From the NCBI GenBank assembly GCA_000720805.1, contig JODI01000042.1, forward strand, positions 1 through 64,000: a stretch of 64,000 nucleotides of DNA. Direction: 5' to 3'. Below are positions 11,618-39,208 of this stretch, piece after piece. The DNA is from Streptomyces violaceoruber. GTDB taxonomy: Bacteria > Actinomycetota > Actinomycetes > Streptomycetales > Streptomycetaceae. The notes under the pieces were generated by a model. That model saw only the letters and a list, made by a program, of their open reading frames with translations. It was not told the DNA's origin and ran no database searches. The first letter of the stretch is position 1. Every line of letters begins with the position of its first letter. The translations under genes and the position numbers were made by a program.

Positions 11618-12289
11618 TCAGTTCTTGCCGAGCATCTTGTTCATCTGCTGGATCTCGGCGGTCTGGGCCGAGATGACGTCGTCCGCGAGCTTCACGGCGG
11701 GACCGTACGCGCCCTTGGCCTTCTCGGTCTTCGCCATCTCGACGGCGCCCTCATGGTGCTGGACCATCATCTCGAGGAACATCTTGTCGAACTCGGCGCC
11801 GGACGCCTTGTCCAGCTTGCCCATGTCCTCGCCGCTCATCATGCCGGGCATGTCAGGCATGGAGGACGACATGTCGTGGTCCATGCCCGGCATGGACGAC
11901 ATGTCCTCGGGGACCTCCTCGCCCCACGAGGTGAGCCAGCCGGACATGGTCTTGATCTCCGGGTCCTGTGCGCTCTTGATCTTCGTGGCGAGGCCCTTGA
12001 CCTCCTGGGACGAGGCGCGGTCGGCGGCCAGGTCGGCCATGGTGATGGCCTGACGGTGGTGCTGGATCATCTCGGTGGAGAAGTCGACGTCGGCGTCGTT
12101 GTGGGTGCCGGCCTTCGCCGCGGCGGAAGCGGAGGCGGATGGACCGGCCGACTCGGAGTTCATCGACCCCATGTCGTGACCGCCGCTGCCGCTGTCGCTG
12201 TCGCCGCCGCACGCGGCCAGTACGAGGGCGGCCACGCCGGTGGTGGCGGCGAGGGCGGCACGACGGATGAGCCTGCGCTGTGCAGTCAT
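11618..12289 (-). CDS. DUF305 copper-associated lipoprotein
   Basis: 223 residues. Lipobox LVLAAC with Cys27, Ser/Gly linker, then the DUF305 helical bundle containing repeated His/Met-rich signatures (FSTEMIQHHRQAITMA; FLEMMVQHHEGAVEMA) and a Met/His-rich insert (about 135-165). Such proteins bind copper outside the membrane in copper-resistance loci. The ATG at 12289 has AGGAG 8 nt upstream; a longer frame is not needed. It lies downstream of a DUF6153 gene and is probably co-transcribed with it from the CsoR-box promoter at 12.87 kb. Confidence 0.9.
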   Translation of the reverse strand: MTAQRRLIRRAALAATTGVAALVLAACGGDSDSGSGGHDMGSMNSESAGPSASASAAAKAGTHNDADVDFSTEMIQHHRQAITMADLAADRASSQEVKGLATKIKSAQDPEIKTMSGWLTSWGEEVPEDMSSMPGMDHDMSSSMPDMPGMMSGEDMGKLDKASGAEFDKMFLEMMVQHHEGAVEMAKTEKAKGAYGPAVKLADDVISAQTAEIQQMNKMLGKN

Positions 12290-12386
12290 GGTTGAGCTCC
12301 TGCGTTCTGGTGTCTCGGATCTGCTGAAGGGCATGCCGAAGCACGGCGCCACGTCCGCATGGGCAGGTGGCGGCGTACGGGCCGCT

Positions 12387-12827
12387 CTAGATCCGCAGAA
12401 GCTGGAGCTCGGAGAGTGAGGGCGGTGCTCGACCACCGTCGGGACCACTGCCGTCCGGGAACGTCCGCACGTCCGGCGCCGACCCGGCGCAGGTCACCAC
12501 GTCGGGCTCCAGCACCGGTACCACCGCGGGAGTCCCGGGAACGGAGGCGGACGCGCAGGTCGGGTCCGCATGCGTCATGTGACCCGGGCAACCGCCTTCA
12601 CCGTGGTCGCACTCCCCCGGGGCCGACATCACCACACCTGTGTGTGCGCTCGCCACGATCCGGTCGGGCCCTGCCGGATCGTGGTTCGCCGGGACCGGCC
12701 CGAGGCCGTGCATGCCGAGCAGACCCAGCAGGAGGGCGGCCACGAGCAACCCGAACGACCGCACCGTACGGTGCGGTCGCGGGTGCTGGACGAGGCGGGT
12801 CACGGCCTCATCGTAAGCATGGATCAT
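12387..12827 (-). CDS. DUF6153 small exported/membrane-anchored protein (copy 1)
   Basis: 146 residues. A basic N-terminus and one hydrophobic helix (about 26-42, LLVAALLLGLLGMHGLG) precede an extracytoplasmic segment with clustered Cys/His (ECDHGEGGCPGHMTHADPTC). It ends with the family tail PPSLSELQLLRI. Function is unknown; the Cys/His content and position suggest a periplasmic copper ligand or chaperone. A CsoR-type repeat lies 47 bp upstream. It shares its end signature with two other small proteins in this window (14537-14974 and 33379-33810). Confidence 0.85.
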   Translation of the reverse strand: MIHAYDEAVTRLVQHPRPHRTVRSFGLLVAALLLGLLGMHGLGPVPANHDPAGPDRIVASAHTGVVMSAPGECDHGEGGCPGHMTHADPTCASASVPGTPAVVPVLEPDVVTCAGSAPDVRTFPDGSGPDGGRAPPSLSELQLLRI

Positions 12828-12920: not shown

Positions 12921-14462
12921 TCAGACCTGGTAGGCGACGTTCGCCATCATCCCGGCCTCACCGTGGTAGGCGTTGTGGCAGTGCAGCATCCACTGTCCCG
13001 GGTTGTCGGCGTCGAAGAAGACGGACAGCTTCTGCTTCGGCAGCACGATCGCGGTGTCCTTGCGCGGCCCGGAGGCACCGAGCTGGTACGTGTGGCCGTG
13101 CAGGTGCATGGGGTGCCACATGTCGGTGTCGTTGACGAAGTCGAGCCGTACGCGCCGGCCCTCCTCGACGAGGATCGGGTGGGCCTGGGGATTCTTCATG
13201 TCGAACGGCGTGCCGTTGACGGCCCAGTTGTACTTGGCCATGCCGCCGGTCAGTTCGATCCGGTGCGTGATGTCGGTCTTCGCTGTCTTGAGGCGCACGT
13301 CGTCGGCGGCGAGAAGCTGCGACGCCGTCCTGATCACACCGTCGAGTTCCTTCGGACGGACTGTCGGCTTCGGCGTACTCCCCGAGCCCGTACGCACCAG
13401 GGCCAGGCCGTTCGCGTTCTTGCCTTCGGCCAGGGCGACCAAGGGGAAGACGCCGTCACCAAGGGTGACGAGGACGTCGTAGCGCTCACCCATGCCGACC
13501 AGCAGGGCGTCCACCTCCTGATGCCGGACCGGGAAGCCGTCGGTGTGCGTGATGGTCAGCTTGTGGTCGCCGAGGGCCACCCGGTACGCGGTGTCCCCGC
13601 CCGCGTTGATGATCCGCAGACGCACTTTCCTGCCGGGCTTGCCGGTGTAGACGTCCGGGGCAGTCGCCACTCGGCCGTTGATCAGGTGGTGCGGGTACTT
13701 CACGTCACCGGCGTCGCCGCCGAGCAGGTCGCTCTCAGCGCCCATGAGCATGAACCTCATCGACGAAGAGGACGGGGAATCTCCTCCCATGTCCATCCCG
13801 CCCATGTCCATCTCGCCCATGCCGTGCCTGAGTTCGGCGAAGACCTCGTCGGGGGTGCCGGTGACACCGTCGACCCAGTCGTCGAGGAGGACGACCCACT
13901 CGTCGTCGTAGGCGAGGACCTCTTTCGGGTCCTCGATGACCAGCGGGGCGTACAGGCCGCGGTCGAGCTGGACGCCGACGTGCGGGTGGAAGAAGTACGT
14001 GCCCGGGGCGTCGGCGGTGAAGCGGTAGGTGAAGGTGGATCCGGCCCGGACGGCGGTCTGCGTGGCCGGCGGCACTCCGTCCATGTCGTTGCGCAGCGCG
14101 ATGCCGTGCCAGTGGATGGAGGTGGCGGTGCGGTCGGGGAGCTGGTTGGACAGTTCGGCGACGAGGGTGTCACCGACGGACAGCCGTACCTCCCTGCCGG
14201 GGGTACGTCCGTCGAAGGCCCAGGTCCGGGGCATGACGCCGCCACCCAGGTCGATCCTCGCGGGGGCGGCGGTCAGGGTGAGCTTCCGCTCTCGTCCTGT
14301 GCGCCCGCGCTTCTTCTCGGTGGCGGCGACAGCGGAGCCGGACGGGCTGGTGAGGGCGTCGGCGCCGCCGGAGCCGGAGTCGCCGCTGCAGGCGGCGAGC
14401 GCGCCGGCGCCCGCGATTCCGAGCCCGGCGATCAGGGCGGAGCGACGGTTGATGCTGTTCAT
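12921..14462 (-). CDS. Multicopper oxidase (CueO/CopA-like), exported
   Basis: 513 residues. N-terminal NRRSALIAGLG resembles a Tat signal and is followed by a lipobox-like ALAAC (Cys25). All copper sites are visible: HWH at 117-119, HPH at 159-161, HPMHLHGH near 450, and HCH at 494-496 with His500 and axial Met505. A Met-rich loop (MGEMDMGGMDMGGD) resembles the cuprous-ion docking loops of CueO. It oxidises Cu(I) to less toxic Cu(II) outside the membrane. It lies directly after DUF6153 copy 2 and is probably transcribed with it from the CsoR-box promoter at 15.0 kb. Confidence 0.93.
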   Translation of the reverse strand: MNSINRRSALIAGLGIAGAGALAACSGDSGSGGADALTSPSGSAVAATEKKRGRTGRERKLTLTAAPARIDLGGGVMPRTWAFDGRTPGREVRLSVGDTLVAELSNQLPDRTATSIHWHGIALRNDMDGVPPATQTAVRAGSTFTYRFTADAPGTYFFHPHVGVQLDRGLYAPLVIEDPKEVLAYDDEWVVLLDDWVDGVTGTPDEVFAELRHGMGEMDMGGMDMGGDSPSSSSMRFMLMGAESDLLGGDAGDVKYPHHLINGRVATAPDVYTGKPGRKVRLRIINAGGDTAYRVALGDHKLTITHTDGFPVRHQEVDALLVGMGERYDVLVTLGDGVFPLVALAEGKNANGLALVRTGSGSTPKPTVRPKELDGVIRTASQLLAADDVRLKTAKTDITHRIELTGGMAKYNWAVNGTPFDMKNPQAHPILVEEGRRVRLDFVNDTDMWHPMHLHGHTYQLGASGPRKDTAIVLPKQKLSVFFDADNPGQWMLHCHNAYHGEAGMMANVAYQV

Positions 14463-14536: not shown

Positions 14537-14974
14537 CTACACGCGCAGTCGGGAGAGGACGGACAGGTCCGGCGGGGCGCGGACGGCGACGGCCGCGCCG
14601 GGAGTGCGCCCCGCCGCGGTCTGCCGCAGGTTCAGCAGCGGGTCGAACGCGATCTGATCGGGTACCGCGAGCTGTACGGAGCCGACGTTCGCCGAGGCGC
14701 AGTGCTGCATGCCCGGCATGTCACAGGTGCCGTGTCCGGCGTAGTTCGCGGCAGTCCCCGAGACGCGTGCCTGGGTGGGGACCGAGGACGGCGGCGTCCC
14801 GTCCGGCATCACGTGAACGGCGTGGACCGGGTCCGGCATGGACGACATGGAGGAGACGTCCGTCGATGGCGTCTCGTGGTGGACGAGCACGGCCAGCGCG
14901 ACGCAGAGGGTGACGAGCACCCCGTACGCCCAACGGGCGGCTGTTCCGCCACCCCGTGCCGACCGAATCGTCAT
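14537..14974 (-). CDS. DUF6153-like small exported protein (copy 2)
   Basis: 145 residues from the ATG at 14974. One hydrophobic helix (about 17-33) is followed by His/Met-rich segments (HHETPSTDVSSMSSM; CDMPGMQHCAS) and the family-type tail APPDLSVLSRLRV. I prefer this ATG because it follows a GGTGGAG-like site and leaves the CsoR box outside the coding region; the frame is open to 15064. It is first in an operon with the multicopper oxidase and presumably handles extracytoplasmic copper. Confidence 0.8.
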   Translation of the reverse strand: MTIRSARGGGTAARWAYGVLVTLCVALAVLVHHETPSTDVSSMSSMPDPVHAVHVMPDGTPPSSVPTQARVSGTAANYAGHGTCDMPGMQHCASANVGSVQLAVPDQIAFDPLLNLRQTAAGRTPGAAVAVRAPPDLSVLSRLRV

Positions 14975-15011
14975 GCGCTCCACCTGTGTACTGTCGTCGC
15001 TGGATTGGATC

Positions 15012-15028
15012 GTACCCCTAGGGGGTAC
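15012..15028. promoter_or_regulatory. CsoR-type operator for the multicopper oxidase operon
   Basis: Perfect inverted repeat GTACCCC-TAG-GGGGTAC. On the minus strand a -10-like TACGAT overlaps its gene-proximal end, 38 bp before the DUF6153 start. Confidence 0.8.
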
Positions 15029-15088
15029 CCGGGCGCTCGGCGGGGTCAAGATGGAAGCCTTCATGTGACCCGCGCCACAGATGACGGA

Positions 15089-15105
15089 ATACCCCAGGGG
15101 GGTAT
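15089..15105. promoter_or_regulatory. CsoR-type operator for copZ-copA
   Basis: ATACCCC-AGG-GGGGTAT with the right arm overlapping -10 TATAGT (15103-15108). It is identical to the box at 39143-39159. CsoR releases such sites when it binds Cu(I). Confidence 0.85.
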
Positions 15106-15189
15106 AGTGTTCTCATCGGTCGGGTGAGGCAGGCAGTCACACCTCTCCCGTAAGGACCGTTCACGCACTCACACCCCGAGGGAAGAGCC

Positions 15190-15483
15190 ATGACCACCGA
15201 GACGAACTCCGGCTCCTGCTGCGGCTCCGGTTCCTGCGGCTCCGGCGCCACGGTCGACGTCCAGGGCGTCGGCGTGACCACCGTGTACAAGGTGTCCGGG
15301 ATGACCTGCGGCCACTGCGAGGGCGCGGTCTCCCAGGAGATCTCCGCGCTGGACGGCGTCACCGCGGTCAGCGCGGTCGCCAAGACCGGCGAGGTCACCG
15401 TGAGCTCCGCCGCCCCGCTCGACGAGGAGGCCGTCCGGGCCGCCGTCGACGAAGCCGGCTACGAGCTCGTCGGCCCCGCCTGA
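15190..15483 (+). CDS. copZ: Copper chaperone CopZ (heavy-metal-associated domain)
   Basis: 97 residues. A single HMA fold (about 30-97) carries the metal-binding MTCGHC with Cys40 and Cys43. An unusual extra Cys-rich N-terminal tail ([11 protein letters not shown], residues 10-20) adds three cysteines and could be a second copper ligand. It delivers Cu(I) to the CopA ATPase encoded about 100 bp downstream. The upstream promoter carries a perfect CsoR box. Confidence 0.92.
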
Positions 15484-15587
15484 CGACCCGGCGGGCCACC
15501 GCCCGCCCACGTGAACTCCCTCCCGCCGGGACGTACCGCACCGCTGATACGGTCGCCGTGCGTCCCGGCCTCCCCTGGAGACATGTC

Positions 15588-17876
15588 ATGACCAGTACGG
15601 CTCCCGAAAAGGCCCTTTCCGGCGCCGCTCCCGCGCCCGCGCCCGGCCGGCAGGTCGAGCTCTCCATCGGCGGGATGACCTGCGCCTCGTGCGCCGCCCG
15701 CATCGAGAAGAAGCTCAACCGCATGGACGGCGTCACGGCGACCGTCAACTACGCCACCGAGAAGGCGAAGGTCTCCTACCCGGACGACACCGAGGTCGCC
15801 GACCTCATCGCCACGGTCGAGAAGACCGGCTACACCGCGCAGGAGCCACCCCCGCCCGCCCCCGTCACGGGCGAGGAGGGCGCGGCGCAGGCCGCCCCGG
15901 CGGCGGACGGCGAGCTGCTGTCCCTGCGGCAGCGTCTGTACGTGTCACTGGTGCTCACCGTGCCCGTCGTCCTGATGGCGATGGTTCCGGCCCTGCAGTT
16001 CGACAACTGGCAGTGGCTGTCGCTGACCCTGGCCGCTCCGGTCGTCGCCTGGGGCGCCTTCCCCTTCCACAAAGCCGCCTGGACGAACGCCCGGCACGGC
16101 GCCGCGACCATGGACACACTGGTGTCGATCGGTACGCTCGCCGCGCTCGGCTGGTCGGTGTGGGCCCTGTTCTGGGGGACCGCGGGGATGCCGGGGATGC
16201 GGCACGCCTTCGAGTTCACCGTCTCCCGTACGGACGGTTCCTCCTCCATCTATCTGGAGGCCGCGGCCGGGGTGACCACGTTCATCCTCGCCGGGCGCTA
16301 TCTGGAGGCTCGCGCCAAGCGGAAGTCGGGTGCGGCGCTACGGGCCCTGCTCGAACTGGGCGCCAAGGACGTCTCCGTACTGCGTGCAGGCAAGGAAGTA
16401 CGCATTCCGGTGGGCCAGTTGGCCGTCGGTGACCGTTTCGTCGTGCGGCCCGGGGAGAAGATCGCCACCGACGGCACCGTCGTCGAGGGTTCCTCCGCGG
16501 TGGACGCCGCCATGCTGACGGGCGAGTCGGTGCCCGTGGACGTCACCGTCGGCGACGCGGTGACCGGGGCGACGGTGAACGCCGGCGGCCGGCTCGTCGT
16601 CGAGGCCACCCGGGTCGGCTCGGACACCCAGCTCGCGCGGATGGCGACGCTCGTCGAGGACGCCCAGAACGGAAAGGCCGAGGTACAGCGGCTCGCCGAC
16701 CGGATCTCCGGCGTCTTTGTACCGGCCGTCCTCTTCATCGCGGTCGCCACCTTCGGGGTGTGGCTCGGCGCGACGGGCGACACCGTGGCCGCCTTCACCG
16801 CCGCCATCGCCGTCCTGATCATCGCCTGCCCGTGCGCACTGGGCCTGGCGACGCCGACCGCGCTGATGGTCGGCACCGGCCGGGGCGCCCAGCTCGGCAT
16901 CCTCATCAAGGGTCCCGAGGTGCTGGAGTCCACGCGGCGCGTCGACACCGTCGTCCTGGACAAGACCGGAACGGTGACCACGGGCCGGATGCAACTCCAG
17001 GACGTGTTCACCGCACCCCGTGTGGACGAGGGCGAACTGCTGCGGCTGGCGGGGGCGTTGGAACATGCCTCGGAGCACCCCATCGCCCAGGCGATCGCGG
17101 CCGGTGCCGTCGAGAGGGCAGGAAGCCTGCCCGTGCCGGAGAACTTCGAGAACGTCGCGGGTCTCGGCGTGCAGGGCGTCGTCGACGGGCACGCGGTGCT
17201 CGTCGGGCGCGAGAAGCTCCTGGCCGAGTGGGCGATCGAACTGCCCCGGGAACTGGCCGAGGCCAAGGCGGCGGCGGAGGCGGAAGGACGTACCGCGGTC
17301 GCCGTCGCCTGGGACGGCGAGGCGCGCGGTGTCCTCACCGTCGCCGACGCGATCAAGGAGACCAGCGCCGAAGCAGTCGCCGAACTGCGCCGGCTGGGCC
17401 TGAAGCCGGTCCTGCTGACCGGCGACAACCAGCTCGTCGCCGAGTCCGTGGCCAAGGCCGTCGGCATCGACGAGGTCATCGCCGAAGTCCTCCCGCAGGA
17501 CAAGGTGGACGTCGTCAAGCGGCTGCAGGGCGAGGGCCGTACGGTCGCGATGGTCGGCGACGGCGTCAACGACGCGGCCGCCCTGGCCACCGCCGACCTG
17601 GGCCTGGCGATGGGTACCGGCACGGACGCGGCGATCGAGGCGGGGGACCTGACCCTCGTACGGGGCGATCTGCGGGTGGCCGCGGACGCGATCCGCCTCT
17701 CCCGCAGGACCCTGGCCACGATCAAGGGCAACCTGTTCTGGGCCTTCGGCTACAACGTCGCCGCCCTGCCGCTCGCCGCCTTCGGCATGCTGAACCCGAT
17801 GATCGCCGGAGCGGCCATGGCGTTCTCGTCCGTGTTCGTGGTGACGAACAGCCTGCGGCTGCGGGCCTTCAAGTAG
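15588..17876 (+). CDS. copA: Cu(I)-exporting P1B-type ATPase CopA
   Basis: 762 residues. One N-terminal HMA domain with Cys32 and Cys35 (MTCASC), eight expected membrane helices, and the intramembrane copper site Cys414-Pro-Cys416. Phosphorylation aspartate Asp458 lies in DKTGTVT; the P1B-specific HP motif (SEHPIAQA) and hinge [10 protein letters not shown] are present. It pumps Cu(I) out of the cytoplasm at the expense of ATP. ATG at 15588 has GGAG 7 nt upstream. It forms an operon with copZ under the CsoR box and ends at a hairpin before the nuo cluster. Confidence 0.96.
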
Positions 17877-17996: not shown

Positions 17997-18353
17997 GTGG
18001 TGGGTTCTGACTGGCAACCGGTACTGGAGCTGCTGGTACTCGTCGTGGTGGCGATCGTCCTGCTGCACGCCGTCTCCGTCGCGTTGCGAGCGGTCCGCGA
18101 GCCGCTGCACACGGGTCCGTTCAGCGGCGGCCTCGAACCGCAGGAGCACGCGCTGTCCCGGTTCCACGTGCGCTGGTATCCCGTCACCATGATCTTCCTC
18201 GCCTTCGACATGGAGATGCTGTTCATGTATCCGTGGACGAAGGTGGTCTCGGAGGTCGGTGCCGCCGCGGTCGTCGAGATGTTCCTCTTCCTCGGCGTGC
18301 TGCTCGCCGGGGTCGGATACGCCTGGCGCGAGGGGGCGTTCCGGTGGAGCTGA
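17997..18353 (+). CDS. nuoA: NADH-quinone oxidoreductase subunit A homologue
   Basis: 118 residues, three membrane helices, with the conserved NuoA segment FDMEMLFMYPW between helices 1 and 2. GTG start with AGGAAG about 7 nt upstream. It is the first gene of an eight-gene overlapping operon. In complex I, NuoA wraps the quinone-channel subunit NuoH. Here the partners NuoB/C/D/I are absent or degenerate, so its role is probably in an atypical membrane complex. Confidence 0.88.
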   Translation: MVGSDWQPVLELLVLVVVAIVLLHAVSVALRAVREPLHTGPFSGGLEPQEHALSRFHVRWYPVTMIFLAFDMEMLFMYPWTKVVSEVGAAAVVEMFLFLGVLLAGVGYAWREGAFRWS

Positions 18354-20056
18354 AATCCCGGCTCGCACGCGCGGCCCTGTCCCGACCGGGGGTCCTGCTG
18401 GCGACGTACCCCGGAGCTACGCGAGAACGGCTCGCGGTGGAAGCGGAGTTGGCGCGCAGAGGGTGGCCGTCCGTGGCCACGCCGGCGGACGCCGATCTGC
18501 TGGTGATCGCGGGAGATTCCGGCAACGGGGGTGACAGAGGCAGGGCGAGCGGCGGGAGCGGCGACTGGGTCGCGAACGTCTGGGGCGCCATATCGGCTCC
18601 GAAGGCGTGGGTCCGCGTCACGGATGCGGTGCACGTCGCCGATGCGCTCGATCGCGGGCTGGCGGAACTCCGACGGGGAGGTTCGCCGTCGGGTCCGCGT
18701 CCGGCGAGCGGGCACGTGGGGCATGACGGTCAGGGAGAGCACGGGGACCACGGCGGGCACGGGGATCACCAAGATCACGGTCAGCACATGGACCACATGG
18801 ACCACATGGACCATGGGGCCCACATGGATCACGGAGACCACGCAGATCATGCAGCCCACATAGATCACGGGGATCACAAGCACCACGAAGGCCACCAGGG
18901 CCACCAGGGCCACCAGGGCCACGGCGGGCACGATGCCCAGGACCGGCAGATGGAACACGGCGAGCACGGCGGCCACGAAGGCCACAGCGAACACGAGGGC
19001 CACGCCCGCCACAGCGAACACGACGACCACAGCGAACACGACGACCACAGCGAACACGACGACCACAGCGAACACGACGGCCACGGCGACCACAACGAGC
19101 ACAGCGGCCACGGCGGCCACAGCGGCCACGGCGGCCACGGCGAGCACGGTGCGCATCAAGGCCATGCCGGGCACGGCGGGCATCAAGGCCATGCCGGGCA
19201 CGACATGGGCGTCGTGGACGGGCTCCCCATGGCGGGTCGGGCCGACGACCGTGACGGGCTGCGGCTGGACCGCTTGCACGTCCCGCTGGGTCCGGTCCTG
19301 GCCGACTGGCCCTCCGGCCTGGTGCTCCGGCTGACCCTGCAGGGCGACATCGTCCAGGAGGCCGCCGTGGAAGTCGTGGAAGCCGTAGAAGCCGCAGGAA
19401 TCGGGGAAACCGTAGACCAGGCCACCGCTCCTCCGGCGTCGCGACCGCCCTTCTGGAACGAGCCGTTCCTGCTCGCCGCCGAGGGCGTACGGGTTCCCCA
19501 AGGTGACGCGGCTCGGCGGTTGTGTGCGGCGCATCTGGACAGTCTGGGCAGGTACTTCGCCGTGGTGGGGTGGGGCGACCTGGCCGCGCGTGCCCGGCTC
19601 GCACGGGACCGCACACTCGCCGGTGCCTCGGCCGCCGAACTCACCGCTCTGGTGCGCCCGTTGATCCGTCGGGCCGCACGCTCGCGGACGGTGCGCCGGC
19701 TGACCGCCGGAGTGGGCGTGCTGCCTGCCGAGCACGCGCGGCACCACGGGGTCACGGGTCCGGCCCTGGTCGCGGACGGAGACGCCCACGCCCGCATGCT
19801 GGTGTGGCTCGAAGCCGTCGGCCGTAGCGCGGCGAGGGTCGGCGTGTCCGAGGCCCTGGACGCGGCGGAGGAGGCCGTCGGGCCCCGCGGGCGGATCGCC
19901 GGCGGGGCGACGCCCGCCTCGCAAGGGCTGTTGGACGTCCTGCCCGGCCTGCTGGCGGGTGCCGAGTTCGCGTGCGCGCGGATCATCGTGGCGAGCCTCG
20001 ACCCGGATCTCGACGAGATCGGACACGTCACGACAGCGGGGATGCACCATGGCTGA
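18344..20056 (+). CDS. Degenerate NuoB-like/NuoD-like fusion with a giant His-triplet linker
   Basis: 570 residues from GTG 18344, which overlaps the nuoA end by 10 nt. Three parts are visible. Residues 1-115 resemble the NuoB/small-subunit fold (LLATYPGA, DLLVIAG, VWGAISAPKAWVRV) but contain no cysteine, so the N2 iron-sulfur ligands are missing. Residues 124-286 are an almost unbroken array of x-x-His triplets, 53 His in 163 residues, with Asp, Glu, Gly and Met between. Residues 290-570 resemble a NuoD/hydrogenase large-subunit start (LHVPLGPVLADWPSGLVLRL) but lack the histidine of the quinone site. The gene stands where nuoB-C-D would be. The similarity assignment is by eye. The His array probably binds Cu, Ni, Co or Zn. 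Confidence 0.75.
   Translation: MELKSRLARAALSRPGVLLATYPGATRERLAVEAELARRGWPSVATPADADLLVIAGDSGNGGDRGRASGGSGDWVANVWGAISAPKAWVRVTDAVHVADALDRGLAELRRGGSPSGPRPASGHVGHDGQGEHGDHGGHGDHQDHGQHMDHMDHMDHGAHMDHGDHADHAAHIDHGDHKHHEGHQGHQGHQGHGGHDAQDRQMEHGEHGGHEGHSEHEGHARHSEHDDHSEHDDHSEHDDHSEHDGHGDHNEHSGHGGHSGHGGHGEHGAHQGHAGHGGHQGHAGHDMGVVDGLPMAGRADDRDGLRLDRLHVPLGPVLADWPSGLVLRLTLQGDIVQEAAVEVVEAVEAAGIGETVDQATAPPASRPPFWNEPFLLAAEGVRVPQGDAARRLCAAHLDSLGRYFAVVGWGDLAARARLARDRTLAGASAAELTALVRPLIRRAARSRTVRRLTAGVGVLPAEHARHHGVTGPALVADGDAHARMLVWLEAVGRSAARVGVSEALDAAEEAVGPRGRIAGGATPASQGLLDVLPGLLAGAEFACARIIVASLDPDLDEIGHVTTAGMHHG
19010..19081. repeat. Four 18-bp tandem repeats inside the His-rich array
   Basis: Near-identical copies of CACAGCGAACACGACGAC (last copy differs at its end) encoding His-Ser-Glu-His-Asp-Asp. 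They indicate recent expansion by slippage or unequal exchange. Confidence 0.95.
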
Positions 20057-20993
20057 GCGCGCCCCGCTGTGGGCGGTCTTCGTCCTGCCCGCCGTCCTGG
20101 TCGTGGTGGCCGTGGCAGTGGCCGGTCTCGACGCCGTGCTCGCGGCAGGGGCTCGCACCGGCCGTATCGGTTCGCCGCGTGCGGCAGCCCGCCATGCCGT
20201 CCGGCCCGGCCGCGAGGTGCTTCGGCATCTTGTGCAGCAGCCGCGGCGCACGCGTGCCGCCGATCTGCCGCTGACCCGCATCGGCGCGGCTCTGCTTCCC
20301 GTCGCGGCAGTTCTGGCCGCCGTCGTACTGCCGCTGGGCTTCCGGTCGGTGAGCGATCTGCCGGAAGGCATCGTCTGGTTCAACGCCATGGAGGCGCTGG
20401 CCTGGGCTGCGGTGTGGCTGGCCGGCTGGGGGCCGAACTCGGCGCTGTCGCTCATCGGCGGCTACCGGTTCCTCGCGCAGGGGCTGGCGTACGAGCTGCC
20501 GCACATGCTCGCCATCACCACGGCCGCGCTCGGGGCTCAGTCCCTGCGGGTGGGCGAAGTCGTGGACGGCCAGGCGGGGTTGTGGTTCGCCGTGTGGATG
20601 CCGGCGGCCTTCGGGATCTATCTGCTGAGCGCGATGGCGATGGCGTTCTGGGGGCCGTTCGACCAGCCCGCCGGAGTGGACGTGGCCGGCGGCGCGGCGG
20701 CTGAACTGTCGGGCGTGGACCGGGTGTTGTTCCTGGGCGGCCGGTGGCTGCTGCTGGTCGTGGCCGCGGCGTTCAGTGTGCCGCTCTTCCTGGGCGGCGG
20801 GCACGGGCCGCTGCTGCCCGGCTGGGCGTGGACCGTGCTCAAGACGGCGGCCGTGCTGGCCGTCCTGGTCTGGGCCCGGCGCAGGGTCCCCACGCTGCGC
20901 ATGGAGAGGTACGTGGAGCTGGCGTGGGTCGTGCTGACTCCGCTGGCCGTCGTGCAGGCCCTGTTCGTGGCCGTCGTAGTGCTGAATCGATGA
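20049..20993 (+). CDS. nuoH: NADH-quinone oxidoreductase subunit H homologue (diverged)
   Basis: 314 residues, about eight membrane helices, starting inside the end of the His-rich gene. The NuoH signature NSALSLIGGYRFLAQGLAYELP is present. The acidic loop that is normally PFDxPEAExEL reads PFDQPAGVDVAGG, so the conserved glutamates lining the quinone chamber are gone. This matches the degenerate NuoB/NuoD-like protein next to it and argues against normal quinone chemistry. Confidence 0.88.
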   Translation: MAERAPLWAVFVLPAVLVVVAVAVAGLDAVLAAGARTGRIGSPRAAARHAVRPGREVLRHLVQQPRRTRAADLPLTRIGAALLPVAAVLAAVVLPLGFRSVSDLPEGIVWFNAMEALAWAAVWLAGWGPNSALSLIGGYRFLAQGLAYELPHMLAITTAALGAQSLRVGEVVDGQAGLWFAVWMPAAFGIYLLSAMAMAFWGPFDQPAGVDVAGGAAAELSGVDRVLFLGGRWLLLVVAAAFSVPLFLGGGHGPLLPGWAWTVLKTAAVLAVLVWARRRVPTLRMERYVELAWVVLTPLAVVQALFVAVVVLNR

Positions 20994-21014: not shown

Positions 21015-21575
21015 ATGGATGTCGCCGTCTTCTGGGTGCTGGCGGTCCTCGGGGTCGTCAGCGGCGCGATGGTGTTCCGCTTCGACTCCATGGCGCGCGC
21101 GACGTTCTCCCTGCTGGCCTCGCTGCTGTGCGTGGGCGGGCTCGTCGTGCTGCTGGGGCTCGACTATCTCGGCATCGTCATCGTGCTGATGATGACCATC
21201 GAGATGGCCATCATGGCCGTCTTCATGGTGATGTACATGATGAACCCGGCCGGGCTCATGCCGATGACGATGATGCACAACAAGAGGGGCGCGGCCGTGG
21301 TCTGCGGGCTGCTGTTCGCGCTGCTGGCCGCCGGGATCGTGCTCGCGCCCTGGCCCGGACGCCGGGGCGGCGCTCCGAAGGACCCGACGATGGATCTCGG
21401 CATGTCCCTCATGGGCCCGCAGATGCTCACCATGATGACGCTGGGCATGGCGCTGTTCGCGACGATCGTGGCCACGGTGGTGCTGGCCACCCGCCGGGGA
21501 CGGTACGACCGGCTCGGCGACGACCTGCGGGCGCGGCGCGCGGACGATCCCGTACGGGGCGGTGTCGGCCGGTGA
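21015..21575 (+). CDS. nuoJ: NADH-quinone oxidoreductase subunit J homologue, Met-rich
   Basis: 186 residues with five membrane helices. Helix 3 carries the NuoJ-type Gly/Tyr/Glu region (LDYLGIVIVLMMTIEMAIMAV). The protein is strikingly Met-rich (VMYMMNPAGLMPMTMMHNK; GMSLMGPQMLTMMTLGMA), more than usual for NuoJ and notable beside a copper locus. Its end overlaps the nuoK start (GTGA). Confidence 0.87.
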   Translation: MDVAVFWVLAVLGVVSGAMVFRFDSMARATFSLLASLLCVGGLVVLLGLDYLGIVIVLMMTIEMAIMAVFMVMYMMNPAGLMPMTMMHNKRGAAVVCGLLFALLAAGIVLAPWPGRRGGAPKDPTMDLGMSLMGPQMLTMMTLGMALFATIVATVVLATRRGRYDRLGDDLRARRADDPVRGGVGR

Positions 21576-21877
21576 GTCTGGACCTGTTTCTGCTGCTGGC
21601 CGCCGCCCTGTTCTGCGTCGGGTTGTTCGGGGCGCTGACCCAGCAGTCGATCGTGATGCTGATGATGGGCCTCGAACTGATGCTGGGCGGGGTGATCCTG
21701 GCCGCGGCCGCCGTCTGGCACTACATCGCGCCGGCGACCTCCGAGGGCCAGGTGCTGATCGTCGTGGCGGTCACGGCGATGGCCCTGGAGATGGCGATCG
21801 GATTCGCCGTGGTCACCGCCCTGTTCCGGTCGCGGGAGATCGACATGACCGACATGGCGGCGGAGTTGAAGGAGTGA
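21572..21877 (+). CDS. nuoK: NADH-quinone oxidoreductase subunit K homologue
   Basis: 101 residues, three membrane helices. Both family glutamates essential for proton transfer are present: Glu35 (MMGLELML) and Glu73 (AMALEMAIG). The GTG start overlaps the nuoJ stop and the gene ends in GTGA shared with nuoL, giving tight coupling. NuoK is homologous to MrpC of cation/proton antiporters. Confidence 0.92.
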   Translation: MSLDLFLLLAAALFCVGLFGALTQQSIVMLMMGLELMLGGVILAAAAVWHYIAPATSEGQVLIVVAVTAMALEMAIGFAVVTALFRSREIDMTDMAAELKE

Positions 21878-23760
21878 GCGCCCTGCTGTGGGCGCTGGTC
21901 GCCCTCCCCCTCGGTTCCGGTGTCCTGCTTCTGGCGGCGGGGCGCGGGGCAGACCGGGTCGCCCCCGCCCTGGCCCTCGCGGTCACGGCAGCCACGACTG
22001 GGCTCGCCGTCGCGGCCGCCTTCCAACACCCCACCGCGCAGGCTCCGTTCCTCGACGGGCTCCCGCTGCGGCTCGCCGTCGACGGCCTGTCCGGTCTGCT
22101 GGTGGTCACGGTCACCGGGGTCGCCCTCGCCGTCCTCCTCTTCAGCGTCGCCGAGTTCGGACCGGACGAGGCGCGTGCCCGCTTCTTCGGGCTGATGCTG
22201 CTGTTCGCCGGGAGCATGCTCGTCACCGTGACGGCCGCGACCCTGCCCGTCCTGTTGATGGGCTGGGAGGTCATGGGTGCCACGTCCTGGGCGCTCATCG
22301 GCTACTGGTGGCGGGAACCTCGGCGGACGGCGGCCGCGGACACCGCGTTTCTCACCACCCGGACCGCGGACCTCGGTCTGTATCTGGCGGCGGGTGCCGC
22401 GCTGGCGAGCGGCCGTGACTCGACGCTCTCGCTGGACGGGCTTGCCCGCGCCGACGATCCGTGGCTGTCCTTCATCACCGCGGGCATCGTCGTCGCGGCC
22501 CTCGGGAAGTCCGCCCAGCTGCCGTTCAGTTTCTGGCTGTCGAAGGCCATGCAGGGCCCGAGCCCGGTCTCCGCGCTGCTGCACTCGGCGACGATGGTGG
22601 TCGCGGGGGCGTATCTGCTGCTGCGGACCGGGCCCTTGCTGGTCGCCTCCGGCTGGGGCGACGACGTGGTGGCGTGGACGGGCGCGGCCACCGCGCTGTG
22701 CCTCGGCCTGGTCGCCGCCGCCCAGCGCGACCTCAAGCAGTTGCTCGCCGCCTCGAGTTGTGCGCAGATCGGCTTCATGGTGCTGGCGGCGGGGGTCGGA
22801 GCGACGTCCGGGGGCACGTTGCAGCTGATCGCCCATGCGGCCGCGAAGAGTCTGCTCTTCCTGGCGGCCGGCGCGTGGCTGACGGCGCTGGGCACGCAAC
22901 AACTTCCCGAACTGCTCGGCGCGGCACGCCACCACGTGACGCTCGGCACCGCGTTCACCGTGGCCGCGCTGTCCCTGGCCGGGCTTCCGCCGCTCTCGCT
23001 GTGGGCCGCCAAGGACGTCCTGCTCGCCCAGGTCCTGGAGAGCAGCCCCTGGCTCTACGGCGTGGGGCTGGCCGCGGCCCTGCTGTCCGCGGTCTACAGC
23101 GCCAAGGCCCTGTGGTACGTGTGGCAGCCCGAGGTGCCCCGTCCCGATGCCGGAGTGCGGGGGAACGGCCGGCGGCCGCGGTCGTCCGCCCGCCGCATCC
23201 CGGCCGGGGCCGTGGCTCCCCTGGTTCCGCTGGCCCTGGCCTGCGTCGCCCTGACGCCCTTGGCCTTCCCGCCGCTGCGTGAGGCTGTCGGACGCGTGGT
23301 CGGCGGTCCCGGTCCCCTCGCCCCGGCCGCCTGGGAGTTCGCGCTGTCCGGGGGACTCGCCCTCGTGGCGGCCGCACTGGCCTGGTCCTGGAACACGCGC
23401 CCGCTGTCCCTGCCGGGTCGCGCCACGCGGGTGGTCGCGGACTGGCTGGGCCTGGAACGTGCTGCCCATGTCCTCCTCGTCGCGCCGGTGATGCGGCTCG
23501 CGCGCGTGGCCGCCGCGTTCGACGACCGGGGCCTGGACCGCGTGGTCGACGGCTCGGCCGCGGCTGCCGTACGGCTCGCGCGCTGGACGAACGGCGTCGT
23601 CGAACGGGCCCTGGACGGCACGGTGACGGCGGTCGCGTCCGGGACCCGCGCGCTCGGCCGCTGGGCCCGCCGCCCGCAGACCGGACAGCTGCACCAGTAC
23701 CTCGCCCAGGCCGTCGCGGCCTTTACCGTCCTCGCCGTCGTGCTCGTCCTCGTGAGGTGA
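21874..23760 (+). CDS. nuoL: NADH-quinone oxidoreductase subunit L homologue (antiporter-like)
   Basis: 628 residues. The Mrp/NuoL antiporter core has the charged-residue motifs GWEVMGATSWALIGYWW and KSAQLPFSFWLSKAMQGPSPVSALLHSATMV. A C-terminal amphipathic lateral helix and last membrane helix follow. It should translocate protons or cations. GTG start overlaps the nuoK stop by 4 nt, and the 3' end overlaps nuoM in the same way. Confidence 0.92.
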   Translation: MSALLWALVALPLGSGVLLLAAGRGADRVAPALALAVTAATTGLAVAAAFQHPTAQAPFLDGLPLRLAVDGLSGLLVVTVTGVALAVLLFSVAEFGPDEARARFFGLMLLFAGSMLVTVTAATLPVLLMGWEVMGATSWALIGYWWREPRRTAAADTAFLTTRTADLGLYLAAGAALASGRDSTLSLDGLARADDPWLSFITAGIVVAALGKSAQLPFSFWLSKAMQGPSPVSALLHSATMVVAGAYLLLRTGPLLVASGWGDDVVAWTGAATALCLGLVAAAQRDLKQLLAASSCAQIGFMVLAAGVGATSGGTLQLIAHAAAKSLLFLAAGAWLTALGTQQLPELLGAARHHVTLGTAFTVAALSLAGLPPLSLWAAKDVLLAQVLESSPWLYGVGLAAALLSAVYSAKALWYVWQPEVPRPDAGVRGNGRRPRSSARRIPAGAVAPLVPLALACVALTPLAFPPLREAVGRVVGGPGPLAPAAWEFALSGGLALVAAALAWSWNTRPLSLPGRATRVVADWLGLERAAHVLLVAPVMRLARVAAAFDDRGLDRVVDGSAAAAVRLARWTNGVVERALDGTVTAVASGTRALGRWARRPQTGQLHQYLAQAVAAFTVLAVVLVLVR

Positions 23761-25271
23761 CCCGGATGCTGACCGCCCTCGTCTTCGTGCCCACGGCCGT
23801 CGCGCTGTTGCTCTTCGTCCTGCCCCGGCGTACGGCCCCCGCGGTGTTCCGGGTCATCTGGGTGGCGGTGTCCGCCGTCGAACTCGCCCTCGTCGTCGCG
23901 CTGTGGGCCGGCTACGACAGCGACGGCGGAATGCAGTACGAGCAACGCACCCGCTGGATCCCCAGCGCGGGCGTGGGCTACCACGTCGGCGTGGACGGTC
24001 TGTCCCTGCCGCTGCTCGCCCTGACGTGCCTGCTGTTCCTGGCCTGCGCGGTGTACTCGCTGCGCGAGAACCGCCGTGTGCGTGAGTTCGCCGCCCTGTT
24101 CCTCTTCCTGGAGACCACCTGTCTGGGCCTGTTCGCGGCCCTCGACCTGATCCTGTTCTTCGTCTTCTTCGACCTGTCGATCGTGGCGATGTACTTCGTC
24201 ATCGCCGGGTGGGGTCACCGGCAGGCTGCCCGCGCCGCGCTGAAGTTCTTCCTCTACACCTTCATCGGCTCGCTCGCCCTGCTGCTCGGCTTCATCGGGC
24301 TCTATCTCGCCGCGTCCCCGCACACCTTCGACATGGTCGAGCTGACCCGGCAGAACCCGCTCGCCGGACGGTCCGTCTACGGCGGCCTCGTCCTGCTGGC
24401 CGTCCTGGTGGGCCTGGCGGTGAAGACACCGACGGTGCCGTTCCACACCTGGCTGCCGCCGGCGCACGTCGAGGCGCCGGCCGCGGGTTCGGCGATCCTG
24501 GCCGGGGTGTTGCTGAAGATGGGCACCTACGGGTTCGTACGCATCGCCATGCCGATGCTGCCCGGGGCCTGGCGACGCTACGCCCTCGTGCTGGTCGTCG
24601 TCGGCGTCGTGTCCGTCCTGCACGGGGCCCTGGTCGCGCTCGCGCAGACCGACTTCAAGCGGATGATCGCCTACACCTCCGTGAACCACATGGGCTACAT
24701 CGTCCTCGCGGTCGGCGCGGCCGCGGCGACGGCGGACAGTTCCGAGCAGGCCCGCTCCCTGGCCGTCACCGGGGCGGTGACGCAGATGGTCAGCCACGGC
24801 CTGCTCACCGGCGCGCTGTTCCTGCTCGCCGGGGTGATGTACGAGCGGGGACGGACGTACGACATGCCCTCCTACGGCGGAGTCGCGGGCGTGGCCCCCG
24901 TGTTCGCGGCGATGACCGGCGTCGCGGCCTTCGCCTCCCTCGGGCTGCCCGGGTTCTCCGGCTTCATCGCCGAGTTCCAGATCTTCACCGGAAGTCTCGG
25001 ACCGCGGCCCGTGGCCACCGCGCTCTCCGTGCTCGGCATCCTCCTCACGGCCGGGCTGTTCCTGCGGGCGCTGCGGCAGATCCTGACGGGGCCGTTGCGT
25101 CTGCCCGACGCCCCGGGGACGCCGCGCCCGTTCACCGACCTGCGCACCCATGAGAACCTCGCCGTCATACCCCTGTTGGTGCCGGCCGTGGTGCTCGGAG
25201 TGGCACCGCGCTTCCTGCTCGACGTCATCGAGCCGGCCTCGCGCTCCGTGCTGGAGCTGCTCACCCGATGA
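23757..25271 (+). CDS. nuoM: NADH-quinone oxidoreductase subunit M homologue (antiporter-like)
   Basis: 504 residues, about 14 membrane helices. Family motifs: LLALTCLLFLACAVY, LKFFLYTFIGSLALLLG, and KTPTVPFHTWLPPAHVEAPAAGS with its conserved Lys and His. GTG at 23757 overlaps the nuoL stop like the other junctions; an ATG nine bases later is the alternative. Confidence 0.93.
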   Translation: MTRMLTALVFVPTAVALLLFVLPRRTAPAVFRVIWVAVSAVELALVVALWAGYDSDGGMQYEQRTRWIPSAGVGYHVGVDGLSLPLLALTCLLFLACAVYSLRENRRVREFAALFLFLETTCLGLFAALDLILFFVFFDLSIVAMYFVIAGWGHRQAARAALKFFLYTFIGSLALLLGFIGLYLAASPHTFDMVELTRQNPLAGRSVYGGLVLLAVLVGLAVKTPTVPFHTWLPPAHVEAPAAGSAILAGVLLKMGTYGFVRIAMPMLPGAWRRYALVLVVVGVVSVLHGALVALAQTDFKRMIAYTSVNHMGYIVLAVGAAAATADSSEQARSLAVTGAVTQMVSHGLLTGALFLLAGVMYERGRTYDMPSYGGVAGVAPVFAAMTGVAAFASLGLPGFSGFIAEFQIFTGSLGPRPVATALSVLGILLTAGLFLRALRQILTGPLRLPDAPGTPRPFTDLRTHENLAVIPLLVPAVVLGVAPRFLLDVIEPASRSVLELLTR

Positions 25272-26686
25272 CCGAGATGAACGAGAACCCGCTCGACCTC
25301 CTGCCCGAGGTGCTGCTGGCCGCGTCGGCTGTGCTCGGCCTGCTGCTCGGCTCCTGGCTGCCGCGCGCCCGGCAGTGGGCGGTCGGGTTGCTGGCGGTCG
25401 TCGCGTGCGTGGCGGGGATCGTCGCGGCGTCCGTGGCCGCGGCGGAGCCCGCCACGACCGCCTTCGGTGAGGCGTTCGCCGTCGACCCGGTGACGAACAC
25501 GTCAAGGATCGTGGTCCTCGCCGGCACGCTCCTCGTCCTCGGCGTCTCCTTCCGGCCACTGCGGGGCGACGCCCGGGAGAGCGAGTTCTACGTCCTGGTG
25601 CAACTGGCGTCCCTCGGCGCGCTGATGATGGCGGGCACGCAGGACCTGCTGCTGTTGGCCGCCGCCTACCTGCTGGCGAGCATCCCGGCCTACACGCTCG
25701 CCGGCTTCCGCAAGGACGGGCCCGGCACCGAGGCGGCCCTCAAGTACTACGTCGTCGGCGCCCTGTTGGGCGTTCTGATGCTGACCGGCATCACGATCCT
25801 GTACGCGGCCGGGCGGGCGACCGGCTATCCGATGCTCGGGGACGCGTTCCGCGACGCGCCCAGGGCGTTGCTCGCCACCGGCGCTGTCGGGCTGCTGACC
25901 GGCGTGCTGTTCAAGGCCGGAGGCGTGCCCGCGCACTTCTGGGTGCCCGACGCGGTGCAGGGCAGCAGCCCACCGGTGGCCGCGCTGCTCACCACCATCC
26001 CGAAGATCGGGGCGCTGGCGGCGCTCTTCCGCCTCGGGGACGTGGTCTTCGCGGACAGCACGCTGCCGTGGGCCGCGCTCGTCGCCGTACTGGCCGCCGC
26101 GTCGATGACCCTCGGCAACCTGGGGGCGTTCTTCCAGCAGGACGTCAAGCGGCTGCTGGCCTACTCGACGATCAGCCAGGTCGGATACCTGCTGATGCCG
26201 GTGGCCGTCGCGGGCCGCGCGGACCTCGCCCAGTCGGCGTTGCTGTACTACCTCGCGGCCTACACGGTCACCAACCTCGGCGCGTTCGCCGTGGTGTGCG
26301 CCCTTCCCCGAGCCGAGTCGCTGGACGACTACCGCGGTCTCGCGAAGGAGCGCCCGCTGCTGGCGGCGAGCCTGGTCGTCTGCCTGTTGGGGCTCGTCGG
26401 CACCCCGCCGACGGCGGTCTTCCTCGGCAAACTCGAGGTGTTCAGCGCCGCGTTCGACGGCGGCTACGCGTGGCTCGCGGTCCTCGCCGCCGTCAACACC
26501 GTGGCGTCGCTCTTCTACTACCTGCGCTGGATCGTGCCCGCGGCCTCCCGGACCGGGTCCGTGCCCCTGGCCGAGGGCGGCCGGCCGGCGCGCGTCGTCG
26601 CCTACGCCGCCGCGGCCGTGTCCCTCGGGCTGGGCATCGGCGGCGGACCGGTCCTGGACGTGCTGACCGGACCGATCAGCCACTGA
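25268..26686 (+). CDS. nuoN: NADH-quinone oxidoreductase subunit N homologue (antiporter-like)
   Basis: 472 residues, about 14 membrane helices, ATGA overlap with nuoM. NuoN motifs FKAGGVPAHFWVPDAVQGSSPPVAALLTTIPK and LLAYSTISQVGYLL (read in parts) are intact, including the Lys residues of the proton channel. It is the last gene of the orphan membrane module. No peripheral-arm genes follow; the next gene is convergent. Confidence 0.92.
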   Translation: MTEMNENPLDLLPEVLLAASAVLGLLLGSWLPRARQWAVGLLAVVACVAGIVAASVAAAEPATTAFGEAFAVDPVTNTSRIVVLAGTLLVLGVSFRPLRGDARESEFYVLVQLASLGALMMAGTQDLLLLAAAYLLASIPAYTLAGFRKDGPGTEAALKYYVVGALLGVLMLTGITILYAAGRATGYPMLGDAFRDAPRALLATGAVGLLTGVLFKAGGVPAHFWVPDAVQGSSPPVAALLTTIPKIGALAALFRLGDVVFADSTLPWAALVAVLAAASMTLGNLGAFFQQDVKRLLAYSTISQVGYLLMPVAVAGRADLAQSALLYYLAAYTVTNLGAFAVVCALPRAESLDDYRGLAKERPLLAASLVVCLLGLVGTPPTAVFLGKLEVFSAAFDGGYAWLAVLAAVNTVASLFYYLRWIVPAASRTGSVPLAEGGRPARVVAYAAAAVSLGLGIGGGPVLDVLTGPISH

Positions 26687-26720: not shown

Positions 26721-27719
26721 TCAGTCGCGTGGCCGGCGCACGAGCATGCCGCCGCGTTTCAGCGAGCTGAGGACGAGTGAGGTGTCCACGGACGCCACGG
26801 CCCGCAGCCAGGACGCCCGGGTGACGAAGTCATACAGGGCCGACTCACTGGGCAGCGCCGCCAGCACCAGGATCTGATGCTCTCCGGTGACGAAACTGGC
26901 GTACCGGACGTGGACGTTGTCCGCCAGCGCCGCTGCCACCGCCTCGGCATCCGTCGGAGCGGTGCGCACCCGGATCAGCGCCTCCACCGGCAGCCCGAGC
27001 AGTGCCGGCTCGATCACGGCGCGGATGCGCACCCCGCCTTCCCGCCGCAGCGCGGCGAGGCGCCGCCGCGCGGTGGCTTCCGAGACTCCCGCGACGCGGC
27101 CGAGTTCCTCGTAGGTGCACCGCCCGTCCTCGGCGAGCGCGTTCAGGAGCAACCGGTCCGACCGGGAGAGTTCGACGTCGGCGGGCGGCATCACATCTCC
27201 GTCGGCTGACGACGGCGCGGGCGCCTCGGAGGGGGCGGCCAGCACGGCGATCTCGTCGTCGGTGAGCAGACCGGAGTGCCACTCGCGGATCGTCCGGATG
27301 TGCCGCAGCACCGGGAGGGTGAACGTCTCCAACATGCCGGGCAGTCCCGGCAGTTCGTCCATCACCAGGCTCGCCAGGCGGTCCCGGGGGCAGAGCAGCT
27401 CCGCGACACAGTCCGGGGAGCCGGTCAGGACATGAGTGAAGACACAGTCGGGCCGGCCGGCCAGCGCGCTCGCGACCATCCGGGCCTGCCCCGGGGCGCA
27501 GCGCACACCGACCACCGTGCTGCCGCCGTGCTGGGCCATGGCACCGATCCGCACCAGCCCCGAGTCCAGCAGCCGGGTCCCCCGACGGACGACGGTGCGT
27601 TCGGCCTCGCCGAGCGCTGCCGCGATGCGGTGCCACGAGGCCCGGCCGTCGATCTGCAGTGCGCTGATGATGCGACGATCGAGCGAATCGGCCACAGGAC
27701 CGGTCTGCTGTGCGTTCAT
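26721..27719 (-). CDS. Double-domain Lrp/AsnC-family regulator
   Basis: 332 residues made of two tandem Lrp units. An HTH lies at about 10-55 (SLDRRIISALQIDGRASWHR) and a second at about 185-235 (LSRSDRLLLNALAEDGRCTY). Each is followed by an RAM-type effector domain. Such tandem proteins are common in actinomycetes. ATG at 27719 is preceded by a GGTGGG-like site. It is divergent from a transporter-amidase-amino acid oxidase operon and probably regulates it in response to an amino acid or amide. Confidence 0.88.
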   Translation of the reverse strand: MNAQQTGPVADSLDRRIISALQIDGRASWHRIAAALGEAERTVVRRGTRLLDSGLVRIGAMAQHGGSTVVGVRCAPGQARMVASALAGRPDCVFTHVLTGSPDCVAELLCPRDRLASLVMDELPGLPGMLETFTLPVLRHIRTIREWHSGLLTDDEIAVLAAPSEAPAPSSADGDVMPPADVELSRSDRLLLNALAEDGRCTYEELGRVAGVSEATARRRLAALRREGGVRIRAVIEPALLGLPVEALIRVRTAPTDAEAVAAALADNVHVRYASFVTGEHQILVLAALPSESALYDFVTRASWLRAVASVDTSLVLSSLKRGGMLVRRPRD

Positions 27720-27852
27720 CCCACCAAGCCTATGGCCGATTCCGTCACTTCGACCGGGATTCTTGTTCCGTTCCGTCATCGTGCCCGAACCTGCACTGCA
27801 TGAGCCGCACGAACCAATGATCCCCGTCTCACGACGCACGGAGATGATCGAC

Positions 27853-39159: not shown

Positions 39160-39208
39160 AACGTTCTCAGTCGTGGGCCACAGAACGGCCCACTCGACGG
39201 GAAGGGGG

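Follow-up and report, generated by a model that had tools for sequence, protein, structure and literature searches.

The stretch of DNA analyzed here (the window) comprises 64,000 nucleotides of Streptomyces violaceoruber (assembly GCA_000720805.1, contig JODI01000042.1). It carries eight consecutive genes, nuoA-BD-nuoHJKLMN (the module), which are related to those of respiratory complex I. The second of them encodes a fusion of NuoB-like and NuoD-like domains joined by a His-rich linker (the BD protein), and the module lies directly after the copper genes copZ and copA, on the same strand (Table 1).

The NuoB-NuoD fusion and its operon

The BD gene is a real gene, and every available indication places it on the plus strand. 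Tight overlaps with both neighbours had been pointed out in a first-pass annotation, made from the sequence alone, and they measure 10 bp with nuoA at the start and 8 bp with nuoH at the stop. In a Pfam scan of the module frames, matches above the cut-off were obtained for all seven membrane subunits (A, H, J, K, L, M and N), with L, M and N of the window told apart by NCBIfam and position. No match to NuoB, NuoC, NuoE, NuoF, NuoG or NuoI was detected in that scan, and NuoD gave only a sub-threshold match (E 0.12). The PF01058 and PF00346 matches in the rest of the genome all lie on contigs other than that of the module, and separate Nuo1 and Nuo2 copies are present on contigs C31 and C22/C38. 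The second nuo operon of the source genome (contig C22; A, B, C and H-N) yielded no NuoD match by tblastn in 14 kb, and a NuoD-like frame, aligned in two pieces, was observed on contig C38 (38855-39604).

Profile searches and the predicted structure agree on a NuoB-like and a NuoD-like end, as the first-pass annotation had proposed, and the top Foldseek match of the predicted structure was formate hydrogenlyase (7z0s_E). The description of these ends as cysteine-less and quinone-site-less also held in an alignment of 75 sequences. The four-Cys set of cluster N2 was absent (0-2 Cys in the N-domain, with the best Cys column at 18/75), and the quinone-site His of NuoD (GP-x-H-P) was absent from a GP-x-L-x-D-W-P motif, with any His in that stretch in a single sequence. 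The Cys ligands of a [NiFe] center were absent from the C-domain as well, where only C394 (45/75) and C544 (27/75) formed Cys columns, neither of them invariant. All that remains of the Q-module is a fused NuoB-NuoD protein, which has no ligands for an iron-sulphur cluster or for quinone. The linker had been proposed to replace the Q-module; instead, it joins two retained, cofactor-less Q-module domains.

Homologues of the BD protein numbered 445 at E≤1e-3 among 7988 scored candidates, and the named hosts among the 120 of them listed were Streptomyces. Compared with four relatives, the N-domain has a ratio of nonsynonymous to synonymous substitution rates (dN/dS) of 0.20-0.30 and the C-domain one of 0.21-0.33; both end domains are under purifying selection. 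The linker gave a dN/dS of 0.14-0.59, which alignment and saturation make unreliable.

Scanning GTDB genomes gave 157 relatives, from which 79 loci were retained (the near family). Their hosts are mostly Streptomyces, and also Wenjunlia, Actinomadura, Saccharopolyspora, Nonomuraea, Micromonospora, Bailinhaonella and a metagenome-assembled genome of Thermomonosporaceae. The nuoA, nuoH, nuoJ and nuoK genes were present in 79/79 loci, nuoL in 78, and nuoM and nuoN in 77, with the missing genes (L097, L106) falling at contig ends; the BD protein was extracted from 78 of the loci. Within the sequence that the contigs cover, the order A-BD-H-J-K-L-M-N was unbroken in the 79 loci, and the BD gene keeps its predicted place between nuoA and nuoH in related genomes. 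In a sample of Actinomycetota the fusion was found at E≤1e-10 in 21/396 genomes (15/236 genera), which is a lower bound, because low-scoring NuoJ matches of the same size occur in further genomes of family f27.

Gene order was identical in 20 more distant (deep) regions where the contig reaches. The module is also present on plasmids of proteobacteria and in further classes of actinobacteria; outside Actinomycetota the comparison covered plasmid sequences only. The 12 plasmid loci with a query coverage of at least about 80% (H3-H14; 10 from Alphaproteobacteria and 2 from Rubrobacter, four of them typed conjugative) were all annotated A-BD-H-J-K-L-M-N. In some plasmid loci the BD or nuoH gene is split or shortened, and gammaproteobacterial records were among the protein matches. 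Two divergent copies of the module were observed on different contigs in Streptomyces sp. CHD11 (L070/L073) and in Streptomyces sp. TRM68367 (L037/L084). Apparently truncated plasmid copies, with nuoA and part or all of the BD gene, were seen in Rhodococcus pRB29 (L140, with BlaI and M56 genes nearby) and in a Streptomyces NBC_00080 plasmid (L141). A DUF6629 gene recurs 5′ of nuoA in the alphaproteobacterial plasmid copies L163, L164, L170, L171, L172 and L173, and a gene for a sigma-70 family factor lies just upstream in L170-L172.

Table 1. Positions of the module and of the copper genes next to it in the window
Feature	Position	Strand	Remarks
nuoA	17997..18353	+	PF00507 E 2.9e-25; D71-M72-E73-M74..M77 around buried acids; H57
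NuoB-(His array)-NuoD fusion (BD protein), 570 residues	18344..20056	+	GTG start, open frame
NuoB-like domain, residues 1-112	18344..18679	+	without N2 cysteine motif
His/Asp/Gly array linker, residues 123-289	18710..19210	+	53 His in x-x-His register; structure confidence score pLDDT mostly < 50
NuoD-like domain, residues 291-566	19214..20041	+	quinone-site His lost
nuoH	20049..20993	+	ATG at 20049; PF00146 E 1.1e-44 on open reading frame 19959-20993; several Q-cavity/E-channel residues changed
nuoJ	21015..21575	+	11.8% Met
NuoJ signature MMxxEMxxMxxxMxxxMM...MxMxH, residues 59-88	21189..21278	+	motif comparison
nuoK	21572..21877	+	M29, M31, M32, M70 and M74 adjoin E35 and E73
nuoL	21874..23760	+	proton-path residues retained; H334 = Q
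nuoM	23757..25271	+	proton-path residues retained; E144 = D
nuoN	25268..26686	+	proton-path lysines retained; E133 = L
CsoR-type operator-like palindrome	15089..15105	.	5′ of copZ-copA-nuoA; overlaps promoter-like site 15081-15108
copZ (HMA copper chaperone)	15190..15483	+	
copA (Cu P1B-type ATPase)	15558..17876	+	
Multicopper oxidase (MCO), copper island	12921..14462	-	
DUF6153, copper island	14537..15064	-	PF19650 just under cut-off; CsoR-like box at 15013
DUF305, copper island	11618..12448	-	CsoR-like box at 12874

Conserved methionines, proton-path residues and the linker

Met accounts for 11.8% of the residues of the module NuoJ, compared with a mean of 2.7% and a maximum of 4.5% in canonical NuoJ (n = 30, the best-scoring PF00499 loci of 80 genomes). 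All 79 near NuoJ sequences carry the signature MMxxEMxxMxxxMxxxMM, as do 18/19 deep ones and 8/8 from plasmids (8 of the 12 plasmid loci were used in residue and motif comparisons), but none of the 30 canonical sequences does. The sole deep NuoJ that lacks the exact signature (L142) carries one inserted residue. E. coli Tyr59 aligns with the segment that holds this signature, and NuoJ M26, M59, M60, M64, M67, M71, M75, M76, M84, M86, E63 and H88 were invariant in 19/19 deep and 8/8 plasmid sequences. NuoA carries the motif D/E-M-E-M-x2-M plus H57, with M72 in 79/79 near, 19/20 deep and 8/8 plasmid sequences, and M74 and M77 in all near (79/79), deep (20/20) and plasmid (8/8) sequences. In NuoK, M29, M32 and M70 are fixed, and M31 (2/8 plasmid) and M74 (15/19 deep) are weaker; M32 is also Met in both canonical copies of the source genome. 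Among near-family columns conserved at ≥95%, Met made up 23/139 in A/J/K vs. 14/555 in H/L/M/N (Fisher p 8.7e-9). In NuoA, NuoJ and NuoK alike, Met residues adjoin conserved acids, and they are fixed at what was the coupling site of complex I. Judged by these alignments, the NuoJ Met signature is better conserved than the His array of the linker, and the Met residues of NuoA/J/K, absent from the first-pass annotation, are a stronger clue than that array.

The membrane arm retains most of the proton-path residues of NuoK/L/M/N, with residue roles that we assume from the E. coli complex I literature. The exceptions are NuoN E133, which is lost (Leu); NuoM E144, which is Asp in the near family; NuoL H334, which is Gln in most of the near family; and NuoN K217, which is Glu in 6/18 deep sequences. 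NuoH E157 was retained in the near family, but in only 8/19 deep and 0/8 plasmid sequences, and Arg replaced NuoH E241 in every near (79/79) and plasmid (8/8) sequence and in 18/19 deep ones. NuoH R291 was lost in the near family and retained in 16/19 deep and 8/8 plasmid sequences.

The array of 53 His in the window linker is as the first-pass annotation had counted it, with 48/52 His-His spacings of exactly 3. Overlapping tandem repeats of 9, 18, 27 and 36 bp detected by TRF encode the array, which probably grew by repeat expansion because the DNA repeats overlap in tandem. Across 79 proteins (78 relatives and the window protein), the linker contains 0-79 His (median 15; ≥10 in 56), and the array is a variable, dispensable trait of lineages and not the core feature. 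In the Rubrobacter-type relatives L148, L151, L152 and L153 the linker between the B and D domains contains a heavy metal-binding domain (HMBD; PF19335) at E 9.7e-15 to 4.4e-13, and proteobacterial relatives also carry HMBD at this site. All 120 listed of 1017 Rubrobacter-type homologues have HMBD together with PF00346, with 1-7 copies of the HMBD motif in such homologues, and plasmid versions of the BD protein are named 'heavy metal-binding domain-containing protein' by NCBI. PF19335 gave no match in the window BD protein in the Pfam scan, and the linker of other deep relatives offers no more than a Met-containing GGEGMMGG...PYGRPMAM stretch. With a His array in some members and HMBD in others, two unlike metal-binding solutions therefore share the linker site, neither of them universal.

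Copper genes and operators next to the module

In the window, DUF305, MCO and DUF6153-like genes, copZ and copA lie directly 5′ of the module, with copZ and copA immediately upstream, and the interval from copA to nuoA showed no terminator-like site. The palindrome 5′ of copZ (15089) reads TAC-N9-GTA with G-tracts and is a putative CsoR binding site by the streptomycete consensus and TAC-N9-GTA rule given in the accessible part of PMC3902906. Strict operators, of which 60 were counted in 1.62 Mb across all loci, were found ≤300 bp upstream of nuoA in 12/79 loci vs. 0.025 expected under a Markov model.

Unbiased clustering of the neighbours of the 79 loci ranked DUF305 (22), MFS (19), CopA (18) and CopZ (12) at the top, followed by a pyridoxal phosphate enzyme (12), NlpC (11), BlaI/CopY-type regulators (10) and MCO (9). 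Most of these family names were assigned by reading the sequences, and the DUF305 and MCO counts are raw numbers. M56 peptidase-like proteins, also named by reading, were observed near the module in 7/79 loci, and together with the BlaI/CopY-type regulators they may represent a second mode of regulation.

A copA gene at ≥68% identity in the best high-scoring segment pair was present within the flanks of 18/79 loci. Six genomes of the window's genus contain 15 copA-like genes in about 53 Mb, which gives about 0.5 expected in 1.62 Mb, a rough figure because the thresholds differ. Among 22 genomes besides that of the window, a copA-like gene was found ≤2.5 kb from the module in 5 (0.25 expected, P 3.7e-6) and ≤10 kb from it in 7 (0.50 expected, P 2.6e-7). 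Dedicated copper genes (MCO, CopB, CopD, CusA/CzcA and copper-binding proteins) were counted, as a raw number, ≤13 kb from the module in 9/12 plasmid loci, and in Rubrobacter tropicus the order is DUF305-ATPase-regulator-copper protein-nuoA. These data indicate that copA genes and CsoR-type operators adjoin the module far above chance.

Three further observations concern the surroundings of the module. An Nramp-type metal transporter gene (27436-29163, +) lies 3′ of nuoN in the window and was matched in 0/79 loci. A His-rich DUF4396 protein is encoded at 39191-39733 (+; PF14342 E 5.1e-43), with a CsoR-type palindrome just 5′ of its gene at 39143. DUF4396 genes also occur near the module on both Rubrobacter plasmids.

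Known relatives and possible functions

Operons of this kind are already in print. The 'partial NDH-1' or nuoAHJKLMN operon has been published as a marine or osmotic adaptation in the accessible parts of PMC3314556, PMC4018334, PMC6676996, PMC6002675 and PMC8622039, and the order nuoA, hypothetical protein, nuoHJKLMN is described in PMC6676996. By gene order, the module matches these operons (Salinispora partial 2; Streptomyces SM17/SM18; Kocuria flava S43), in which nuoA and nuoH enclose a protein that was given no name, and the operon is read there as an ATP-generating proton pump. The first-pass annotation had suggested a new kind of complex I derivative; the operon itself is not new, but the accessible parts of these papers do not describe the domains of the middle protein, the Met residues or the copper link. 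Nor was a copper function for the operon found proposed in the parts of that literature available, and the literature searches made yielded no paper recognised as proposing one. A carrier from copper-rich mine fluids is mentioned in PMC6676996, where osmotic stress is the explanation offered.

Respiratory complex I shares with the module the homologous A, H, J, K, L, M and N subunits, the Q-module domains B and D and most proton-path residues. Unlike complex I, the module has no N module, NuoI or NuoC in the frames scanned, its B and D domains are fused and lack Fe-S or quinone ligands, NuoJ and NuoK are Met-rich, and the linker would bind metal. Mrp Na+/H+ antiporters are non-redox relatives with NuoL/M/N-like and NuoJ/K-like subunits (PMC7419157, accessible part), and by analogy the logic of ion exchange is likely shared. 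In contrast to Mrp, the module has Nuo-type subunits with NuoA, NuoH and the BD protein, and likely soft-metal ligands with no Na+ site; MrpE, MrpF and MrpG gave no match in the Pfam scan of the module genes, all of which match Nuo-type families. Group 4 [NiFe] hydrogenases, formate hydrogenlyase and MBS have NuoB/NuoD-type small and large subunits, as in the module, but the BD protein has no invariant Cys for [NiFe] or [4Fe-4S] and lies in a copper context. 'Ehr' complexes are cofactor-less relatives of group 4 [NiFe] hydrogenases with NuoB/NuoD-type subunits. The HMBD stretch of the relatives matches the YTCPMHPEV...CPKCGM-type domain (PF19335) of copper P-type ATPases and RND adaptors; unlike in those efflux proteins, HMBD is inserted here between NuoB and NuoD, and the window protein has a His array instead.

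The metal link put forward by the first-pass annotation finds independent support in several features of the sequences, namely copper neighbours, CsoR-type operators and HMBD in relatives; from these we infer metal gating or transport by the module. We are as ready to accept as to doubt that the products of the eight genes form a redox-dead derivative of complex I for copper handling, in which proton flow would be coupled to the movement of Cu(I). Copper would be the likeliest substrate because of the Met residues and the HMBD relatives. In such a complex, the BD protein would dock on NuoA/H/J/K, where NuoB and NuoD dock in complex I, and its linker would collect Cu(I) from the cytosol. Cu(I) would then enter a Met-lined path at the old E-channel and cross the membrane in exchange for protons entering via NuoL/M/N, in the way that Mrp exchanges Na+ for H+. 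Export would be likelier than import, since both the operator-like sites and the neighbouring genes are of the efflux and detoxification kind. More tentatively, the module may represent a branch of the complex I superfamily with a copper substrate, that is, a Cu(I)/H+ exchanger driven by the proton-motive force, which would receive Cu(I) from a metal-binding NuoB-NuoD pseudo-enzyme, have a Met-lined path replacing the E-channel and be carried through Actinomycetota and Pseudomonadota along with copper islands, conjugative plasmids included.

Several observations weigh against this proposal. The loci share ancestry, and counts among them are not mutually independent. No copA at ≥60% identity was found in the reachable flanks of 61/79 loci (up to 10 kb; some contigs are short). 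Of the 7 genomes with a copA-like gene ≤10 kb away in the 22-genome test, 5 come from a single family and two from a single genus, and the copA-like match in G007 is only 40% identical. On the plasmids, L173 has only a P-type ATPase nearby, and L168 and L171 have no copper gene ≤13 kb from the module. The linker has ≤3 His in 9/79 proteins and none in L086, L087 and L102, and a reading of deep relatives, among them L147, L154 and L156, showed neither a His array nor HMBD. The stripe of Met on one face of NuoJ transmembrane helix 3 is weak (p 0.012; 0.09 with M76). The Met residues could serve packing, and the one path that they would line is hypothetical. Another soft metal, such as Ag or Zn, could take the place of copper.

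The main rival, which we consider unlikely, is a copper-gated proton or ion channel or pump, in which metal bound to the linker would be the switch or sensor for conduction through NuoL/M/N and no metal would cross the membrane. The linker is in the cytosolic part, and its capacity for metal differs greatly between members (0-79 His, 1-7 HMBD), as for a buffer or sensor, and the proton-path residues are mostly intact; gating, however, leaves unexplained why Met is fixed in the membrane helices of NuoA/J/K while the linker varies freely. Appreciably less probable is the published reading of a proton or Na+ pump that sustains an ion gradient in seawater. Although the operon is so reported in Salinispora, Streptomyces and Kocuria (as far as those papers were accessible) and many plasmid copies come from marine samples, the BD protein has no Fe-S or quinone ligand left, and the copper neighbours, CsoR-type operators, HMBD and Met residues would go unexplained. 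Moreover, of the carriers cited in the accessible parts of PMC6676996 and PMC6002675, one came from copper-rich mine fluids and another from a copper iron sulfide mineral.

Two further explanations are, to a similar degree, improbable. Cu(I) bound to the BD protein might replace the Fe-S cluster and donate electrons to quinone to drive proton pumping, which would agree with MCO in the flanks of 9/79 loci and of several plasmid loci and with the retention of NuoH R291 in deep and plasmid sequences; its loss in the near family, the Arg at NuoH E241 in nearly all sequences and the absence of the NuoD quinone His argue against such an enzyme. The module might instead transport another soft metal (Ag, Zn, Cd or Ni), with copper one of several metals in the islands. 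HMBD is a general heavy-metal domain, and some plasmid islands contain arsenic, CDF and RND genes, as the window contains an Nramp gene. That gene is not conserved, however, the recurring partners are CsoR-type operators and copZ/copA, and Met-only sites favour Cu(I)/Ag(I). Finally, the loss of the cofactor sites might mark a functionless, degenerate leftover of a complex I operon, which is scarcely credible and is contradicted by conservation: dN/dS is low in both domains (0.20-0.33), and gene order and most proton-path residues are kept across classes and phyla.

A long-standing question about complex I is how protons many nanometres from the Q-cavity are coupled to the events there. A proton-coupled copper transporter of the kind proposed here would be a natural relative that has the proton arm but an apparent metal path in place of the redox input, and it may allow coupling to be studied without electron transfer.
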